This document shows positions 4,123 through 49,342 of a stretch of 49,342 nt of DNA, piece by piece. This stretch comes from a virus. The notes under the pieces are model-generated. The model searched no databases. It was not told the DNA's origin and saw only the letters and a list, made by a program, of their open reading frames with translations. Made by a program: the position numbers and the translations under genes. Location: positions 1-49,342 of IMG/VR virus record IMGVR_UViG_3300009068_000059; one strand, given 5' to 3'. The number at the start of each line of letters is the position of its first letter. Positions within the stretch are counted from its first letter, which is position 1.

Positions 4123-4386
4123 TCATATAGTTTCGTTAGCCACCTTAAAAAGTATTAAATATCCAATAAGGTCATCTATATCATTGTCACCGTAAAACTC
4201 TGTACCTCTTGATATACGAGATAGTTTGTCATCAATCCTAATCTTAATCTGCTCTGTTTTATCTGCTTTTGAAAATATTCTAATTGGATCTAGTGCAGAA
4301 TCTCCATACGATTTATTCTTTGCAATAAGCATATCTTTAATCTCATCGCATATTTGAGCAATTGTAAACTGTGTCTCAAAACTCAT
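4123..4386 (-). CDS. DUF1599-like (nucleotide modification associated) protein
   Basis: An 87-residue protein: ICDEIKDMLIAKNKSYGDSA, LDPIRIFSKAD, IRIDDKLSRISRG, then DDLIGYLILFKVA. This is the pattern of the DUF1599/nucleotide-modification-associated domain 1 family seen in phages, thought to be linked to nucleotide metabolism or DNA modification. ATG at 4386 has AGGAAG close upstream and is preferred to 4398. Whether it acts with the oxygenases is unknown. Confidence 0.7.
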   Translation of the reverse strand: MSFETQFTIAQICDEIKDMLIAKNKSYGDSALDPIRIFSKADKTEQIKIRIDDKLSRISRGTEFYGDNDIDDLIGYLILFKVANETI

Positions 4387-4513
4387 TTTCTTCCTCATCG
4401 TTTAGATCCCAGTCAAAGACTTCTGGGAAATTTTTAATAGCCAAAATTGTGTATGTCAAACCTGCAGCAGCAACCAGTGATACCAGCATAAATAAAGTTT
4501 TAATTCTGTTCAT
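4376..4513 (-). CDS. Small single-pass membrane protein
   Basis: A 45-residue protein: basic start MNRIKTL, one hydrophobic segment (about residues 7-26, FMLVSLVAAAGLTYTILAI), then an acidic tail ending DEEENEF. It starts in the ATGA overlap of the HTH gene and overlaps the next gene by 11 bases. A holin-like or membrane-anchored regulatory role would fit the size but nothing proves it. Confidence 0.65.
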   Translation of the reverse strand: MNRIKTLFMLVSLVAAAGLTYTILAIKNFPEVFDWDLNDEEENEF

Positions 4514-6539: not shown

Positions 6540-6845
6540 TTATCGAGTTATATATTTGAGTGCTGAGACAAGACTGTTTATTGACTCCGCTGCAGTATAG
6601 TACAAATTTTTCTTTCCACGATCTGATTTGTCAACATTAGCCATCCAGGTTGCTTTAAAAGACATTTTAGCAGCAATTGCCTGTAGCCTTACAATCTCCA
6701 CATGTGCAACATTGATTGGAATGTCTGGCTTTATAATTAATTTAGCAATCATTGTAAGTGCAACCGTAAGTTCTTCGTCCTGCATATAGTCTGCAATCTC
6801 TGATAGACCATTTACCATATCTATTGTTGTTTGTTCTTGTTGCAT
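6540..6845 (-). CDS. Conserved helical protein, unknown function
   Basis: A 101-residue, mostly helical protein (ADYMQDEELTVALTMIAKLI, then INVAHVEIVRLQAIAAKMSF). No motif of known function. Residues 72-90 (DRGKKNLYYTAAESINSL) look like a C-terminal helical hairpin. Ends in the promoter sequence for the following nuclease gene. It lies between the oxygenases and the nuclease; small helical proteins of this type are frequent in actinophage replication regions. Confidence 0.65.
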   Translation of the reverse strand: MQQEQTTIDMVNGLSEIADYMQDEELTVALTMIAKLIIKPDIPINVAHVEIVRLQAIAAKMSFKATWMANVDKSDRGKKNLYYTAAESINSLVSALKYITR

Positions 6846-6848
6846 TTT

Positions 6849-7541
6849 TTATACCCCAGTTTTTCTATTATTAAACTTTACTCTTTCTTGTTCCCAAACT
6901 AAATTATATCTTTTAAGATCTTCATCTTTGCTATTGATTTCGTGTCTACGCTTTCTGTCTTCTGGATCTCTGGACAAATCATTAAGTTTTTTATAATCAT
7001 CTTCATTAGCAAAATGAAATGTTAAGACTGTTGATGTTTCATTTTCATCTAATACGATATTTTCTCTCCAGTGTATCAGACCTGCTCCCCAGAAAGCAAG
7101 CATATCTCCAATTTCAAGCGAGTATCTTTTGCCCTCAATAAGAAGATCCCAATCTACAGTTTTTTCTAATTGATAATCTAGTGTAAGTTTTGTGTAGTAG
7201 TTATCAAAGTCTCTATGTGGTTGGAGTTTTGGAGTATCCATTTCAAAATTATACTTTTTATTGTAATGATAATAACTATTGTGTGACATTATAACTGGCT
7301 CACCACAAAGATCAGAGGCAAAGGCTTCAACCTTTTTTAATATATGCTCTGGATAAATTAGTTCAATATGCAGTCTTGATAGTTTTTCTTGAATAATAGG
7401 AGCGTTGAGACTGCTTTCGTACTTAACTTGTTTTAAATCTTCTATGCATTTGTTAATTACTTTTAATTCTTCATCACTAAAAAAATCTTTATATATTTTT
7501 ATTTCTATATCTTTTTTAGGTGCAAACTCTTTGTATAGCAT
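6849..7541 (-). CDS. 2OG-Fe(II) oxygenase, tandem paralogue 3
   Basis: A 230-residue protein. Facial triad: H109-x-D111 in LQPHRDFDNYY and H157 in GAGLIHWRENI. N-terminal FFSDEELKVINKCIEDL matches the previous gene's FSDEQVLRMKSII. The distal motif is IHWRE rather than IHWRP, so this copy is the most diverged. The C-terminal ~50 residues are charged and helical (DPEDRKRRHEINSKDEDLKR). It follows the second copy after two bases. Together the three look like successive gene duplications. Confidence 0.75.
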   Translation of the reverse strand: MLYKEFAPKKDIEIKIYKDFFSDEELKVINKCIEDLKQVKYESSLNAPIIQEKLSRLHIELIYPEHILKKVEAFASDLCGEPVIMSHNSYYHYNKKYNFEMDTPKLQPHRDFDNYYTKLTLDYQLEKTVDWDLLIEGKRYSLEIGDMLAFWGAGLIHWRENIVLDENETSTVLTFHFANEDDYKKLNDLSRDPEDRKRRHEINSKDEDLKRYNLVWEQERVKFNNRKTGV

Positions 7542-7543
7542 GC

Positions 7544-8332
7544 TTAGCCCATAGACTTTCCGCTAATTCCATCCAGGATTCCATCCTCATTCCATAAATC
7601 AAATGCTGCTCTCATGTCTGGTCTTGCTTGTAAAGTTTGCAAATATTTTTTTCTTCTGTCTGGATAAAGTTCTGGATCAATTGGGTTTTCACCATTTAAA
7701 AATCTATAACTATCCATTGGTGAATAATCCATGCTTATAATTTCACAGAATTCTCCGTCTTTAAACTTGCGTTTTGGCCTCCAGTGAATTTGATTAACAG
7801 CGCTAAATATTATTGTCTGCCCAGGACTTAAAGAATACTTTGTAAAATTGCCAGTATCTTCCCAGTTACCAATATACAAATCCCATTCTACGTTTGCATC
7901 TAAGCAATAGTTTACAGTAATTAAATTATTGTCTGCGTCTAAATGAGGAGGAAGTGCTGGACTGTTATCTCCATATCCATATTTAAGATTATAGTCTATG
8001 TAGTTGTAGTGGCACAAAGCAATATCTTCTTTATATAGAGGCTTTACAATTTTATCCATTGATTCTTCACAGTCTTTTGGAATATCAAACTCAATAAGCA
8101 TTCTTGACATGTTCTTTGCAATTTTTGGCTGAAACCTACTTATAAAATTTGATGTTCTTATATAGCCATCCTCAACTCTATCACCAATAATAAGAGGCTC
8201 TAGTTTTCTATTTTCCTCAATGATTGATTTCATTCTTAAAACTTGCTCATCACTAAATAAATTGTCAAGATAAAATGGTAATGGTTTGTTGTATTTATCA
8301 AATCCTGTTAGGTAATCATGTAACTCATGCAT
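7544..8332 (-). CDS. 2OG-Fe(II) oxygenase, tandem paralogue 2
   Basis: A 262-residue protein. Facial triad: H130-x-D132 in LPPHLDADNN and H183 in AVNQIHWRPKRKF, with LITVNYCLDANVEWDLYIGN between. It is clearly related to the gene before (QIHWRP, then a C-terminal strand IISMDYS). It has a longer N-terminal helical part (LFSDEQVLRMKSIIEENRKL) similar to the next gene's. The middle and longest member of the run. Substrate unknown. Confidence 0.75.
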   Translation of the reverse strand: MHELHDYLTGFDKYNKPLPFYLDNLFSDEQVLRMKSIIEENRKLEPLIIGDRVEDGYIRTSNFISRFQPKIAKNMSRMLIEFDIPKDCEESMDKIVKPLYKEDIALCHYNYIDYNLKYGYGDNSPALPPHLDADNNLITVNYCLDANVEWDLYIGNWEDTGNFTKYSLSPGQTIIFSAVNQIHWRPKRKFKDGEFCEIISMDYSPMDSYRFLNGENPIDPELYPDRRKKYLQTLQARPDMRAAFDLWNEDGILDGISGKSMG

Positions 8333-8954
8333 TTATATACTTCCCATCAACATATTTTCCATTGGAGTAACCACCATTTTCATCAAACCATTTTTGATAT
8401 TTTGCTGATTTAGAATCCATAATTTCATTTGCATCTTTATCTTTAGGCCCACCTGTTGGATCAGAAAAATGAAAATAGATCATCTCGACAAAATCATTAT
8501 TATTAAATACCATTGTTGGTCTCCAGTGAATCTGATTAGTTCCACTAAAAGTTAAAGCCTGATTGTCAAAAAGAGTAAATTCTACTTCTTCAACAACCAA
8601 AGGCCATTGGATGTTTGACTTTAATTGAAAGTCAATTGTAAAGCGTTCCTCTTTAAATGTTTCATCATAGTGTGGAAATAGTGATGGTTTATATTCCTTA
8701 CCATCAACCTCACGGTTTTCATATTTACTGTGACAGTATTCTGTTAGGATTAGATTATTATTTTCATTAATAGATCTTGCATAACCCGTAAACTTATCAA
8801 TAATGTTTTGTGGTAAATTTATAAAATTATTTGTTTGACAGTGAACCTCTACAAACTTGTTTCCATGGCTGTTTTCTACTGCAGACAGAACCTGTAGGGT
8901 CTCTTCTTCTGACAAAACCTCATTAATAACGGTATTTGGGTGATCATGCTTCAT
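8325..8954 (-). CDS. 2OG-Fe(II) oxygenase, tandem paralogue 1
   Basis: A 209-residue protein. Facial triad: H95-x-D97 in FPHYDETF and H143 in GTNQIHWRPTMVF. Between them is the jelly-roll pattern TIDFQLKSNIQWPLVVEEVE. The QIHWRP motif is shared almost exactly with the next gene. Known family chemistry is oxidation of a protein, nucleic acid or small molecule using 2-oxoglutarate; the substrate cannot be told. First gene of a three-gene run, with a short overlap (eight bases) into the second. Confidence 0.75.
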   Translation of the reverse strand: MKHDHPNTVINEVLSEEETLQVLSAVENSHGNKFVEVHCQTNNFINLPQNIIDKFTGYARSINENNNLILTEYCHSKYENREVDGKEYKPSLFPHYDETFKEERFTIDFQLKSNIQWPLVVEEVEFTLFDNQALTFSGTNQIHWRPTMVFNNNDFVEMIYFHFSDPTGGPKDKDANEIMDSKSAKYQKWFDENGGYSNGKYVDGKYINA

Positions 8955-8994: not shown

Positions 8995-9005
8995 ATTATA
9001 CACCA
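8995..9005 (-). promoter_or_regulatory. Possible -10 TATAAT before oxygenase cluster
   Basis: TGGTGTATAAT on the minus strand (hexamer 8995-9000) overlaps the preceding stop. Expected start near 8988 leaves about 34 bases before the ATG at 8954, which has AGGAAA seven bases upstream. The TG-to-hexamer spacing differs from the other promoters. Confidence 0.4.
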
Positions 9006-9280
9006 TCTACTAGTTGTTCTAATATTGACATCTCTATTACTGCAAGTCTTACTTTTGAGTTACCCTCGCCAAGAGCAATAACAATTGCTGGATCGTTACC
9101 ATTCCTAATAGCATCGGTTGTAGCCTTTGCCCAAACCTCTTTATTAAGAGTAAAAGATTTTCCAACTTCTTTAAAATCAACCGTAAAGTTTTCCCAAGAA
9201 GCGTCGCCCTTGTGTGTTCCACGACCTGAGTTCTTATGCTGTTTAGCACCTATCCTCTTAGACTCACTCTTTTCTGTCAT
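8996..9280 (-). CDS. Putative PD-(D/E)XK Holliday-junction-type nuclease
   Basis: A 94-residue protein: SKRIGAKQHKNSGRGTHKGD, then NFTVDFKEVGKSFTLNKEVW. This resembles small actinophage endonucleases with a KGD...(E/D)xK active site (here D26, D35, K37) of the archaeal Holliday-junction-resolvase fold; Asp in place of the more common Glu is conservative. The ATG at 9280 (preceded by GAAGG) is chosen over a TTG at 9304. A role in recombination fits its position after recA. A RuvC-like resolvase lies further on, so the two may act on different structures. Confidence 0.5.
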   Translation of the reverse strand: MTEKSESKRIGAKQHKNSGRGTHKGDASWENFTVDFKEVGKSFTLNKEVWAKATTDAIRNGNDPAIVIALGEGNSKVRLAVIEMSILEQLVDGV

Positions 9281-9440
9281 CACCCTTCCATTTCTGTTTA
9301 CCAAACTTAACAGTACTTAAGTGTTTTTCCTTACACATCCAAGTTGCGGTTTTTGTTTCTGGATACAGCCTTAATGATGTAACTTCAATTTTACAACTAT
9401 GGCAAATAAACTTACCATTGTATACTGTGTAACTAGCCAT
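9264..9440 (-). CDS. Small zinc-binding protein
   Basis: A 58-residue protein starting MASYTVYNGKFICHSCKIEV, with the Cys pair C13-x2-C16 and a third Cys in TWMCKEKHLS (C36) plus His 40 as a possible fourth ligand. Short basic C-terminus. Such proteins follow RecA in several actinophages; function unknown. Its ATG overlaps the end of recA by eight bases, and its stop lies 17 bases into the following nuclease gene. Confidence 0.7.
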   Translation of the reverse strand: MASYTVYNGKFICHSCKIEVTSLRLYPETKTATWMCKEKHLSTVKFGKQKWKGDDRKE

Positions 9441-43993: not shown

Positions 43994-46900
43994 TTAGACT
44001 GGATCAACAACAAGTTGTTGCCAACCAATGTCCATATATAGGTTGTACTCATATTTTCCTAAAGTCAAAACTTTTGAGTCATCAACTACTATTTTATTTG
44101 TTCCTGTATAACTTTTGTAAATTTCTGAGGGATTAACACCATAGTAACTAACTTCGGACAAGACAAGAACCTTGTTCCAAATAAAAGATCCAATCCAAAA
44201 CTCCCAGTCAAGGTCATAACTTCCAAGAACTTTAACCCTAAACCAGGGTCTTTCTGAAACATTTTGGACTTCTTGAAGGTTGGTGGACTGATAAAAAGAT
44301 ATATTGTTAAATAAAACTGGACCAGTTATTCTAATTGCTCCCTCAAAATATGAAAAGTCTAAACTGCTTGCAAAACTAATTCCTAAGAATCCCCACTCCT
44401 GTAAAGTTATAACTGGCTCTTTTACAATTTTACCATTCCAATAAAACCCTATTCCGTTTTGAACAAGACCAGTCTTAGAATCAATTGCATAAATTTTTGC
44501 TCTTCTTCCAGTTGGATCACAGGCAACCATATAAAACTTAATGTAGGAATCTTTACTTTGAACTTCAAAAATTTCTGTAGGAGCATAAGGGAAATAGTCT
44601 CCATCAAACCTAATGCTAGTTTGCATTGCAATAACTTTAAATCCATCTGCCTTACTTGTGTTTACTGGAATCATCAATCCTCTGTTTATTAGTGGATCGT
44701 ATCTGCCTCTTAATTGTATTCCGCTTGTCTTAGTCAAATACAGATATGGGGATGACCCGCTATAAATTGAAAATGGATTGTTTTTCTTAAAATCATAATA
44801 TATTCCAGCCTTTGTGTATGGATATATAGATGTACCAAACTTTGTTCCAATCGGACTTGCATCAGATTCATTCAAAGCCTGAGACGCATAAGATAATTTT
44901 TTAATATTTACATTATTTGTTTTTGAATTTTTCACATTTATATCTATGTGTGTAACAATTGACAAATCATTAAAATCAACTCCACTAGGAGGATAGATAA
45001 TCATATTATCAACAACTTCATACTTTGTTGTCATCCAATCTGTGCCTGGAATTAAAACTCCATCTCTTTTTGGTCTTTCTATTTTTGTGAAGTAAGATGA
45101 TGTTGCATTTGCACCAAGTTCTGTATACTGAAATGTTATATAAGACTTTACAATTGCGCCATCTGTATCATATCTGTAGTCTTTTGATATTTTATTTTTT
45201 AAGTCTTCATAATCGTTGTATCCTGTAAACAAATAATTATCTAAAGAATCATATGCTCTTTGAATTGGAACTCCATATTCATTTGCAAGTTCGGCATATG
45301 TCCAGTCTACTGGATCAGTTTCAATTGCTATTGTGTTTGACGGAATTGGATAGTTAATATTAAACTGAATAAAATCAAGATCAAGGTATGTGTCTCCTCT
45401 TTTATCTAAGACAGATTCTGCAAAATATGTAAGAGGAAGATTGTCTTCCCAATAAGCATTTGAAGATACAGCCAATTTATAAGTATCAAATATAAGTTCT
45501 GGGATTAATGTATAACTTGCTACGTGATCCATAAGGGAATCTTCTTCTAGGGAGACAACCCCTCCTGCACTAATAGAGCCATTTGCTATATCGGTTAACC
45601 CTCCAGAAGGAGCCTGTGAGGTTGTATCAACTCCTCCATCAATGCCAATAAGTTGATTGTTTTGATAAAATGAAAACAAATCTTCATTCCATTTTGGAAC
45701 TCCAATTTCATTAAACAAAGATTTAATCTTTTCAAAATTGTGAGCAGTTGAAATACCAATTTTATAAATCTTGCCAGTAAATCTTGATAGACCATTTTTG
45801 TCTCCCCCAACATACATTCTTAGATCTGACAGAGAGCCAAAAAATTCAGACGCTGGCTTTCCAAACCTAGAAATAAATGCTGGAATATTAACGCCTACCT
45901 GAAAACGTTCATTTTCATCAATTTGCAAAGGAGAATATATAACTTCTGTTGTACCTTCGTGACTAATAGTATAACTAATAGTGTTGTTATGTACGCTTAT
46001 TAAAAAATAATTATTGCTATTTTGTTTTTCAATTTTAAACAAAGTTTGTACTGTTAAAGGGCTTTCTCTTAATTGAAAACAACCATAAAAAGCAGATACT
46101 GGAGTATTAAGTATATCAAAATTTTTAAAGAATAAGTGCCCACTTATATTGTTCCATGAAGTATTTGGTCTAAAAGAAAAATAATCTAAACTATCATATA
46201 AAAAACTAAGTGTATTAATTGTTGAATTTGCTTCTTTGCAATCTGCAAGCAAATCATATTCTGTTTTTGAAGACAAAATAACTTCTGGTGTTGAATAAGA
46301 AACTGCAGATAAAGATCCTTTTGAGGTATATACGTTATCACTAAAACCTTGACGCCAAGATCCTGTTTGTGGATAAGAATAATTGGAAGTATAGTCTGCA
46401 AAAGAATAATCAATTGCAACAGATGTTCCACTATAAGATGTATTTATATTTTCTGGATTTTCTACTCCCTGCCCAAAAACAAAACGTCTTTTTGCAACTT
46501 GAGAAGCAACTAGGTATGGATATATACCAACACAATCAATGTCTATTGGTGAAATTTTATCATATGCATAAAACCCAATCCAGTCTTGATCTTTTCCAGT
46601 TAAATTTAATTTTGATGGTAAAGAAAGTAATGATGTAGAATAACTCAAAGAGATTACTTGCTCGCCATTAACCATTAATGAACCAACATCTTTTCCTATT
46701 TTCATATGCACTAGCATTGGCCTTGTCCATTCACCAATATAGTGGGTGGAATATTCATTACCAATCTTAAGCCCAATGGCTGGCCCATCAACATAAATTC
46801 CATCATCTGAGGCTATTGGGCCAATTATTCTTTTTCTTTCGTTAGTGTAAGAATTTATTCTAAGCCAAGTTTCTAAAGTATATTCTGAAAACTGACCAGA

Positions 46901-47731
46901 ATCATTTAACATTCCTAGTCCAGGAACAATTAAAGATGGAAGTCCAGAGTTTGAGTATAAAGTTGTAAGACTTGAAGTTCCATACACTAGCGGAATTCCA
47001 GAATTTTTAGCCATCAGCATATTGTTATTTGAAAAGTAGTAGCCATTTAGTTCTTGAAGTCCATAGCATTTTGCTATAATTGCTTTTTGTGGAGACAGAG
47101 ATATGTTACTAGGAATATCAACTGGAATAGCCCCAAGGGATGTAGAGGCAAACTCTTCTGACCATTGGCCAAAACTAATTCCATTTACACGAAAGGCATC
47201 TTCTGTTTTAGATTTTCCAATAAAATTAATTTTAAAAACAATTTTTATTTCTGTGTAATCTGGTGGTGTGTCAAAAGTTTCTGATATAAAAATCCAATTT
47301 TTATTTACGACTGTATCATAATTTTTTAAATTAGTTATAGTTTCTCCGCTTGTGGTATCTATATATCTATATCCAATTTCAAATCCTGCAATATAAGAAC
47401 TTTCTGAATAAAAATAACCTCCTATTGAAAATGTTCTTAAGTACTGATTGATTTCTGAGATTTCTATTATGTTATTGCTAATCATTGTTATTGATCCAGA
47501 ATCATCTTCAGTTGGGGTTGCAACAATTCTTCCTACATAACTATTAATAAATGGCTCACCCAATGACTCTGGGTATGCAGAGCATGTTCCTCCAATTATT
47601 GTCCAGTTAGAAAAATCTCTCTGCTGCTCTGATATTAAAGAAATATAGTCACAGTTATCGTCAAGTGCCCAAAGACCCATTGGGTGTTCAGAAAAAACTT
47701 TTTCTGCGTATAAGTTTGATGGGGTTGACAT
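43994..47731 (-). CDS. Large LamG/concanavalin-like structural protein
   Basis: A 1245-residue protein with no signal peptide. It contains several beta-rich stretches in the style of laminin-G/concanavalin-like lectin domains, for example the N-terminal GLWALDD phrase, and repeated patterns such as ETWLRINSYTNERKRIIGP and SLMVNGEQV. Such proteins in actinophages are usually virion components that contact the host surface or glycans. That role is inferred from fold and size. It starts after a good AGGAGA site six bases before ATG and sits between the nucleotide/oxygenase genes and the head genes. It could be a fibre, a capsid-decorating or a baseplate protein. No enzymatic motif was seen. Confidence 0.6.
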   Translation of the reverse strand: MSTPSNLYAEKVFSEHPMGLWALDDNCDYISLISEQQRDFSNWTIIGGTCSAYPESLGEPFINSYVGRIVATPTEDDSGSITMISNNIIEISEINQYLRTFSIGGYFYSESSYIAGFEIGYRYIDTTSGETITNLKNYDTVVNKNWIFISETFDTPPDYTEIKIVFKINFIGKSKTEDAFRVNGISFGQWSEEFASTSLGAIPVDIPSNISLSPQKAIIAKCYGLQELNGYYFSNNNMLMAKNSGIPLVYGTSSLTTLYSNSGLPSLIVPGLGMLNDSGQFSEYTLETWLRINSYTNERKRIIGPIASDDGIYVDGPAIGLKIGNEYSTHYIGEWTRPMLVHMKIGKDVGSLMVNGEQVISLSYSTSLLSLPSKLNLTGKDQDWIGFYAYDKISPIDIDCVGIYPYLVASQVAKRRFVFGQGVENPENINTSYSGTSVAIDYSFADYTSNYSYPQTGSWRQGFSDNVYTSKGSLSAVSYSTPEVILSSKTEYDLLADCKEANSTINTLSFLYDSLDYFSFRPNTSWNNISGHLFFKNFDILNTPVSAFYGCFQLRESPLTVQTLFKIEKQNSNNYFLISVHNNTISYTISHEGTTEVIYSPLQIDENERFQVGVNIPAFISRFGKPASEFFGSLSDLRMYVGGDKNGLSRFTGKIYKIGISTAHNFEKIKSLFNEIGVPKWNEDLFSFYQNNQLIGIDGGVDTTSQAPSGGLTDIANGSISAGGVVSLEEDSLMDHVASYTLIPELIFDTYKLAVSSNAYWEDNLPLTYFAESVLDKRGDTYLDLDFIQFNINYPIPSNTIAIETDPVDWTYAELANEYGVPIQRAYDSLDNYLFTGYNDYEDLKNKISKDYRYDTDGAIVKSYITFQYTELGANATSSYFTKIERPKRDGVLIPGTDWMTTKYEVVDNMIIYPPSGVDFNDLSIVTHIDINVKNSKTNNVNIKKLSYASQALNESDASPIGTKFGTSIYPYTKAGIYYDFKKNNPFSIYSGSSPYLYLTKTSGIQLRGRYDPLINRGLMIPVNTSKADGFKVIAMQTSIRFDGDYFPYAPTEIFEVQSKDSYIKFYMVACDPTGRRAKIYAIDSKTGLVQNGIGFYWNGKIVKEPVITLQEWGFLGISFASSLDFSYFEGAIRITGPVLFNNISFYQSTNLQEVQNVSERPWFRVKVLGSYDLDWEFWIGSFIWNKVLVLSEVSYYGVNPSEIYKSYTGTNKIVVDDSKVLTLGKYEYNLYMDIGWQQLVVDPV

Positions 47732-47752: not shown

Positions 47753-48283
47753 TCACACAATGCGGGTAAACCATCGAGGAAGTGTATATCTTATACCATC
47801 TTTAATTTCTTTAACCCCATGGACATAATCTTGATTATCTGGAAAACAAAGCAGGTCTCCTGGCTCTGGTTTATAAGATATTCCTAATTCAGGAAAATAG
47901 ATATCTCCACCAAGATAGTCGTTATTCAAATATAACAGAATTGCAATATCGTTTGGTCTGCTAGTATCATAGTGCTCATGCATGCCCCTACCTGGAGTAA
48001 ACTTTGCAATGTGTGTTTTTTCATCCAAGAAAGGCTGAAAAGGTCCTTCATAGTTATCAACAACAAAATCATAACATTTTTTTGCATAATCTTGAATCAT
48101 ATTTAAAAGCAACTGATCATTTTTTTGTATTTCGTGATAAGTATGAATTGTAAACTCTTTTTCTCCATTTCCGTGTTCTGCAAAAAGAAGCGTGTGTGAT
48201 TTAGCGTATTCTGAAATAGAAGCAGCCAATTCTTTCGGCATAAATTCTTTTACATATAAAACTTTTGATTTTAATTCTTCCAT
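47753..48283 (-). CDS. 2OG-Fe(II) oxygenase, prolyl-4-hydroxylase-like
   Basis: A 176-residue protein with the facial triad of 2-oxoglutarate/Fe(II) oxygenases: H104-x-D106 within MHEHYDTS and the distal H155 within DYVHGV, followed by R165 in the position expected to bind 2-oxoglutarate. The core (LLYLNNDYLGGDIYFPELG, then a PGDLLCFP turn) is the double-stranded beta-helix pattern of the P4H family. It starts at TAATG overlapping the ribonucleotide reductase stop, with AAGG seven bases upstream, so the two are translationally coupled. The substrate is unknown; protein prolyl hydroxylation is only a family-based possibility. It differs in motif from the three tandem oxygenases at 6849-8954, so it is not a recent copy of them. 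Confidence 0.85.
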   Translation of the reverse strand: MEELKSKVLYVKEFMPKELAASISEYAKSHTLLFAEHGNGEKEFTIHTYHEIQKNDQLLLNMIQDYAKKCYDFVVDNYEGPFQPFLDEKTHIAKFTPGRGMHEHYDTSRPNDIAILLYLNNDYLGGDIYFPELGISYKPEPGDLLCFPDNQDYVHGVKEIKDGIRYTLPRWFTRIV

Positions 48284-49342
48284 TATTTTACCTTAATTTC
48301 GCAATAGTCTGTTGTGCAATATGCTTCACCTTGAGCCTCTAAATTATCTACACCGTCGTAAATTGCTCCAAAGTCAATGTGCTTCAGTTTGCCAATATAG
48401 CCATTATACTCTTCTTCTGTAATCTGAGAATAAGGTTGCTGTGGATAAACTGTATTTCCCATTGGCAAGAATGACACAGCCTTTAATTGTCCCTCGTACA
48501 TATTAAGTGCTGGGACAATATGCTTTGACTCTGTTTCCTTATCAAATGAAAGTGTTACAGAGACACCATTGTCAGACCAATACTTCTGAGCAGTTGCAGC
48601 AAGGGCAATCTTTTCAAATAGTGTTACATCCTTTTCAGATCTTGGATGACCTGATTTGATTGGGAAGTAAACTACTGATGTATTTGCTGATACTACGTCA
48701 TCTTCAATTGTGTACCCTGCTGCTTTGAACAAATGAATCATTGGATCTGTGTTTCCAAAACGAACGGCACGAAGGAAGAACTCTCCTCCAGGACCCCAGT
48801 GAACTCCAGGAGTTGCACCAGAAAGAATTGAAACTGATCCTGATGGCTTAACTGTTGTTACTCGAATTGATTCACGAACACACAGCCATTCAGAGTATTG
48901 ATGATCGTAGTGACGAATCTTATTGTATCCTTCATCCATCCACTCACGAACAATTGGCAAACCTTTTTGATCTGCAAATGATGCAATACCAGTAAGTGAT
49001 GTACCAATGCGACGATTGCGTTGCATGATACCGTTTGTTTGTGGCCAATGTGTTGGAACAAGTGTTACAGTCTTTCCATAAAGGTATGCAAACTTCAGGG
49101 TACGCAGGAAGTCCTCCTTAGATTCATGACGATTCAAGTGCACTTCTACAAGTGTACATAATTCATATGATTCCAATGGCTGCTCCGCACATGGGTTAAA
49201 TCCCATCACACGATAATCTTTACCGTCTGGCGCATCCTTTAGTCGTCCATAATTACGAGCAACATCAAGCCAGATAAAACCTGGTTCTCCGTTTTCTGTA
49301 ATTAAATCTACATAGTCTTCGTACTTTGTTCCTACTTCTGCT
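48283..49342 (-). CDS. nrdJ: Class II (B12-dependent) ribonucleotide reductase, 3' part
   Basis: Reduces ribonucleotides to deoxyribonucleotides for phage DNA synthesis. The reading frame is open to the right edge of the window, so the N-terminus lies outside; about 353 residues are visible. The catalytic loop motif NPCAEQ (Cys codon 49189-49191) has the Asn-Cys-Glu arrangement of RNR active sites. The motif KPSGSVSILSGATPGVHWG is typical of the monomeric adenosylcobalamin-dependent class (RTPR type). The C-terminus carries a Cys-x4-Cys pair (CTTDYC), as in class II enzymes where it re-reduces the active site. The GTG at 49209 is only an internal codon: conserved residues continue upstream of it. 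The stop overlaps the next gene's start as TAATG. I am confident of RNR and fairly confident of class II. Confidence 0.9.
   Translation of the reverse strand, partial: AEVGTKYEDYVDLITENGEPGFIWLDVARNYGRLKDAPDGKDYRVMGFNPCAEQPLESYELCTLVEVHLNRHESKEDFLRTLKFAYLYGKTVTLVPTHWPQTNGIMQRNRRIGTSLTGIASFADQKGLPIVREWMDEGYNKIRHYDHQYSEWLCVRESIRVTTVKPSGSVSILSGATPGVHWGPGGEFFLRAVRFGNTDPMIHLFKAAGYTIEDDVVSANTSVVYFPIKSGHPRSEKDVTLFEKIALAATAQKYWSDNGVSVTLSFDKETESKHIVPALNMYEGQLKAVSFLPMGNTVYPQQPYSQITEEEYNGYIGKLKHIDFGAIYDGVDNLEAQGEAYCTTDYCEIKVK

Follow-up and report, generated by a model that had tools for sequence, protein, structure and literature searches.

An accessory, swappable cassette of HxR-signature Fe(II)/2-oxoglutarate oxygenases at a single phage gene junction

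Between two replication/recombination genes of the uncultured phage studied here and its relatives lies an accessory, swappable cassette, inserted exactly at the gene junction, that carries zero to five genes for 2-oxoglutarate (2OG)-Fe(II) oxygenases. The three copies in the window (the whole 49,342-base IMG/VR virus record that was analyzed) belong to a phage oxygenase family that lies outside Pfam, bears an HxR signature, and is new as far as searched. The explanation that best fits the data is that these proteins are active 2OG hydroxylases that anchor 2OG with an arginine two residues past the distal histidine (H+2), are encoded by an accessory cassette, and have protein side chains as their most likely substrates; we give it about an even chance of being right. 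The array occupies positions 6849-8954 of the window, on the minus strand, and the features discussed below are as follows.

6540-6845, minus strand: phrog_9818 gene, function unknown; downstream border of the insertion
6849-7541, minus strand: oxygenase C, 230 aa; HRD and LIHWRE motifs
7544-8332, minus strand: oxygenase B, 262 aa; HLD at residues 130-132, distal H183, R185
8325-8954, minus strand: oxygenase A, 209 aa; HYD at residues 95-97, distal H143, R145; phrog_2954 match and AlphaFold model (pLDDT 94.8)
8996-9304, minus strand: phrog_2002 gene, labelled Holliday junction (HJ) resolvase; upstream border of the insertion
47753-48283, minus strand: oxygenase D, 176 aa, P4H-like; PF13640 at 36.8 bits against a cut-off of 27
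48283-49209, minus strand: adenosylcobalamin-dependent ribonucleotide reductase (class II), C-terminal part, cut by the contig end; adjoins D

The preliminary description of this DNA had proposed three tandem paralogous 2OG-Fe(II) oxygenases sharing HxD and a distal QIHWRP/LIHWRE motif, which the open reading frames, the shared motifs, the PHROG matches, the predicted fold, and an invariant triad all bear out. Each protein carries HxD and the distal motif (QIHWRP in A and B, LIHWRE in C), and each separately matched phrog_2954 (E 1.7e-3 for A, 3.6e-6 for B, and 1.5e-6 for C). An HMM built from A, B, and C alone retrieved 328 ORFs in related loci in a first pass; HxD, the distal His, the Arg of HxR, one Trp, and one Tyr were invariant in 128/128 and later in 161/161 distinct proteins, among which the loss of triad residues, named earlier as a possible refutation, does not occur. 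None of the three proteins matched a Pfam family at E ≤ 1, PF13640 included, none of 76 family members had PF13640/P4H among the families listed for it, and NCBIfam and PDB sequence searches with A-C and with the whole family alignment returned nothing relevant. Relatives of B were also sought in GTDB genome contigs, where none was found. Two loci encode fused double oxygenase domains: one (G009:150-1376) keeps both sets of iron ligands, while the second domain of the other (L042:2244-3446) has apparently lost them, as judged by inspection.

AlphaFold models computed on family alignments, which the preliminary description had suggested as a check, showed the double-stranded beta-helix of the 2OG-Fe(II) oxygenase fold for both A (pLDDT 94.8) and B (pLDDT 89.4). 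Their Foldseek and VIA neighbors fall almost entirely within the 2OG-Fe(II) oxygenase superfamily and include OGFOD1, PHD2, P4H, P3H1, a viral collagen prolyl hydroxylase, SnoN, BesD/HalB, AlkB, and NMAD-1. The best VIA score of A was to SnoN (Z 14.7 over 170 residues, rmsd 4.0), with a prolyl hydroxylase at Z 13.2; that of B was Z 13.9 over 160 residues, rmsd 2.5. Phage proteins that match human prolyl hydroxylase in structure were already known (PMC12774648).

From these models and the retained residues, we infer that the three proteins are active Fe(II)/2OG hydroxylases with a prolyl-hydroxylase-like double-stranded beta-helix. Fe(II) would be bound by HxD and the distal His, and reaction with O2 would yield succinate, CO2, and a ferryl species that hydroxylates a C-H bond. 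PHD/P4H enzymes anchor 2OG by an Arg or Lys about 9-12 residues past the distal His, and the position of this basic residue differs among oxygenase families. A-C share with PHD2, P4H, and OGFOD1 the fold and the H-x-D...H triad but are only 8-15% identical to them, lack a PF13640 match, and lack the downstream Arg/Lys: none of the aligned columns from H+9 to H+20 exceeds 19% R/K. Because the Arg at H+2 is invariant in 161/161 distinct relatives while these columns hold no conserved basic residue, the H+2 Arg is probably the 2OG anchor, replacing the usual one on the next strand. The family would be phage-specific, absent from Pfam, and marked by an apparent relocation of the 2OG anchor. That A-C are instead degenerate, inactive scaffolds or relics, as the fused second domain seemingly devoid of the triad might suggest, is very improbable given that triad and Arg are kept in all 161 distinct proteins across wide divergence.

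The array is located exactly at the junction of the HJ-resolvase and phrog_9818 genes, in a neighborhood of DNA replication and recombination genes with RecA and DnaE nearby. Through the flanking genes, RecA and phrog_9818, 84 distinct junctions were sampled from the top-scoring loci of close relatives (with a RecA identity of 96% or more where listed; not de-replicated by species). No copy was present in 50 of these, one in 24, two in 1, three in 8, and five in 1; loci found through A or B hold two to five copies, but this way of sampling is biased. At empty sites, the stop codon of the HJ-resolvase gene overlaps the start ATG of the phrog_9818 gene (TAATG). Most single-copy cassettes of relatives match the C clade best (43-50% identity), and one relative of 105 kb lacks the family altogether. 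A sequential oxidation cascade, as had been proposed for the array, found no support: most copy-bearing relatives have a single copy at the site and most relatives none. That the array is so cleanly present, absent, or exchanged at a single site is new as far as searched, and thanks to the natural empty sites, near-identical phages with 0, 1, 3, or 5 copies can be compared to test what it does.

The run had also been taken for a local duplication, and a recent one is rejected: A, B, and C are only 20-23% identical to each other and a maximum-likelihood tree places them in separate ortholog groups. The copies are anciently diverged, and the cassette is gained, lost, and exchanged. B is the best conserved copy, with 48-84% identity across relatives. 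Among eight near-complete genomes, the closest relative of the window is 95-98% identical in RecA, terminase, capsid, and portal (RecA 98, terminase 96, capsid 95%) but only 33% in A and 50% in B, a mosaicism which argues that the cassette was exchanged as a unit; the identities of A and B also follow those of the structural genes least closely (r 0.28 and 0.18). Since the cassette varies from zero to five copies and is exchanged between close relatives, it probably has a dispensable, diversifying role rather than one in basic replication, and this role could lie in phage-host interaction or virion modification.

The Streptomyces phages BillNye and Yaboi (Stanwilliamsviridae) have the same gene order (RecA, HJ resolvase, phrog_9818 gene, exonuclease, RuvC ... 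terminase) and are 54% identical to the window in terminase and DnaE, but they encode no member of the A-C family anywhere and hold only small ORFs at the site. As the window has a G+C content of 36.5% and is related to Stanwilliamsviridae of high-GC Streptomyces, it probably infects some other bacterium with a lower GC content. Cyanophage S-SCSM1 sets a precedent for a phage with very many 2OG oxygenases of low mutual identity: it carries 24 2OG-Fe(II) oxygenase genes (PMC9602691); these are mostly of Pfam-recognized families and scattered, without a defined insertion cassette, unlike A-C. Elsewhere in the window, a signal-peptide-like secreted protein is encoded downstream of the terminase (643-1782; 44-88% identity in most of the eight relatives), near whose counterpart several relatives encode a proline-rich protein, and a 1245-aa ORF (43994-47731) matches neither PHROG nor NCBIfam. 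One array-bearing phage encodes an RsmI-like gene of the tetrapyrrole-methylase family (PF00590, L181:12481-13245), with similar-looking ORFs in L183 and L191.

The fourth oxygenase, D, had been described as of a different, P4H-like type beside the ribonucleotide reductase. It passes the PF13640 cut-off as an ordinary member of that family, abuts the class II enzyme, and has a best match in 8/8 relatives compared. Against TET/JBP (PF12851), it scored 16.3 bits, below the cut-off of 34.9. Its best PHROG match, phrog_2297, is named 'DNA endonuclease', a name that looks wrong. The gene at 4123-4398, previously called DUF1599-like, matched no Pfam family at E ≤ 1 and corresponds to phrog_1485, function unknown.

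The fold alone cannot choose the substrate of A-C, because the neighbors include AlkB and NMAD-1 as well as small-molecule oxygenases. Protein hydroxylation, in which each paralogue might have its own target side chains, is our preferred reading, held at roughly even confidence on circumstantial grounds, namely the prolyl-hydroxylase-type fold neighbors and the fiber and glycosyltransferase genes found elsewhere in relatives. Nine relatives of 100-123 kb each encode 3-7 family members and 3-7 PF13640 enzymes; dispersed family members lie near collagen-like or proline-rich fiber genes and PF11397 glycosyltransferases (GT60 type), and a PF11397-like gene with P4H-like genes forms a conserved unit in 13/19 contigs. 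GT60-type glycosyltransferases act in Skp1 hydroxyproline modification. Against protein substrates, this context concerns loci other than the window cassette, which lies among replication and recombination genes and not beside fiber genes. PF11397 and carbamoyltransferase genes were rejected as specific partners, since relatives holding a single array copy or none have them too. In a co-occurrence analysis of 19 contigs and 153 clusters, the best associate of the array was a Methyltransf_24-type gene (9/10 vs 1/9, p 0.001), an association that is not significant over 153 clusters and is confounded by incomplete array-minus contigs. A fuller scheme, in which P4H-like and HxR oxygenases would hydroxylate proline-rich or collagen-like fiber proteins in a Skp1/collagen-like pathway, GT60-type (PF11397) glycosyltransferases and an O-carbamoyltransferase would decorate the resulting hydroxyls, and the cassette would retune the modified residues from phage to phage, is speculative and rather unlikely as a whole.

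The recurrent unit in relatives (G001:29199-33680, G005:74678-80515, and 11 others) comprises an unknown gene of ~224 aa, either one or two 'P-[ED]WY[KR]' proteins, and a PF11397-like glycosyltransferase together with P4H-like genes; in most cases, an O-carbamoyltransferase comes next. Family members also have a proline-rich protein as a neighbor at two loci: at L189:4206-7258 it is of TPVAPTPVAP type and accompanied by a GT60-type glycosyltransferase, and at L190:6526-9286 it is accompanied by a weak O-fucosyltransferase-like gene.

Two other substrate classes have to be weighed against protein side chains. Oxidation of DNA bases or nucleotides by TET/JBP-, AlkB-, or NMAD-1-like chemistry, giving hypermodified or repaired phage DNA, would suit a cassette placed between recombination genes near RecA and DnaE; AlkB and NMAD-1 are among the Foldseek neighbors, and in cyanophages P-SSM7 and S-CAM22, a family relative is encoded immediately after a gene for a DNA methyltransferase. 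However, no A-C match to PF12851 (TET/JBP) rose above the Pfam cut-off, and just 2/76 family members matched PF13532 (AlkB-like; best E 0.11), none, A-C included, reaching the cut-off. The nine relatives of 100-123 kb also lack PF00303, PF01555, and PF00145 genes, which extends to PF01555 and PF00145 in these genomes the earlier remark that no DNA methyltransferase was seen in the window. Some relatives do encode a carbamoyltransferase of Pfam families tied to 5hmC, but without the thymidylate-synthase partner that together with it marks modified contigs (PMC8670742). Most close relatives replicate without the cassette. The acidity of A-C (pI 4.9-5.6) might count against DNA as well, yet RecA and SSB are likewise acidic, so charge is uninformative as a hint on DNA binding. 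DNA-base modification, which the preliminary description had offered as an example, was therefore not upheld, and we consider it unlikely.

Slightly less doubtful, though still improbable, is an action on small molecules, lipids, or envelope glycans, or a consumption of 2OG that shifts host metabolism, an auxiliary metabolic role of the kind proposed for cyanophages (PMC3037559). Consistent with it are the strong structural matches to SnoN, BesD/HalB, and further small-molecule oxygenases, as well as a copy number that varies as in accessory metabolic genes. On the other hand, that multiple diverged copies all keep the catalytic residues points to separate substrates more than to a simple sink for 2OG, and no biosynthetic operon adjoins the window cassette.

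The names of the best-matching PHROGs, 2954 and 3531, would make A-C ferrochelatases, a reading that we reject as having almost no chance of being correct. The ferrochelatase family PF00762 was found in 0/18 phage records by a search that was positive in 8 control genomes, and Pfam showed no ferrochelatase domain in the PHROG 2954/3531 proteins themselves. Ten of these 'ferrochelatases' carry the HxD...HWR/HYR motif and have Y, L, HxD, W, and HxR in common with the window family, to which HHalign aligned them with a probability of 97.7% (E 1.4e-12); phrog_3531-type proteins additionally end in a PF13640 oxygenase domain. In a viral structure library, the S-SM1 'ferrochelatase' came first among the named matches to A, and its BFVD model matches the A model with an E of 5.4e-8. 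Profile similarity and the invariant residues place A-C among phrog_2954-like 'HxD...HxR' oxygenases.

The PHROG 2954/3531 proteins (T4-like gene cluster 615, from cyanophages and pelagiphages) resemble A-C in fold class, in the invariant Y, L, HxD, W, H, and HxR, and in adjoining other 2OG oxygenases. They differ in being only ~13% identical, in having extra motifs of their own (CEIS, GDAVLY, FLHY), in belonging to different phages, and in lying often in tail-fiber neighborhoods, unlike A-C.

Such genes have been discussed as ferrochelatases co-occurring with oxygenases (PMC9599517; PMC11561400, which names phrog2954), and cluster 615 has been listed as having a ferrochelatase domain (PMC3037559). 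The auxiliary genes that these reports call 'ferrochelatase' in pelagiphages, cyanophages, and seasonal marine viruses are very probably 2OG oxygenases, in which case the inferences on heme synthesis or iron insertion drawn from them fail. No published correction of the label was found in the literature searched, and the link that re-annotates these genes is new as far as searched; it corrects a label in use in published marine-phage ecology. Cyanophage and pelagiphage genes labelled 'ferrochelatase' (PHROG 2954/3531) that show the HxD...HWR/HYR oxygenase motif and no PF00762 match are located at L171:3157-4273, L172:3501-4073, L175:3848-4468, L176:3839-4609, and L178:3965-5053. In S-SM1, the 'ferrochelatase' genes stand in tandem with PF13640- and PF13759-type oxygenase genes and one for a 4Fe-4S protein.
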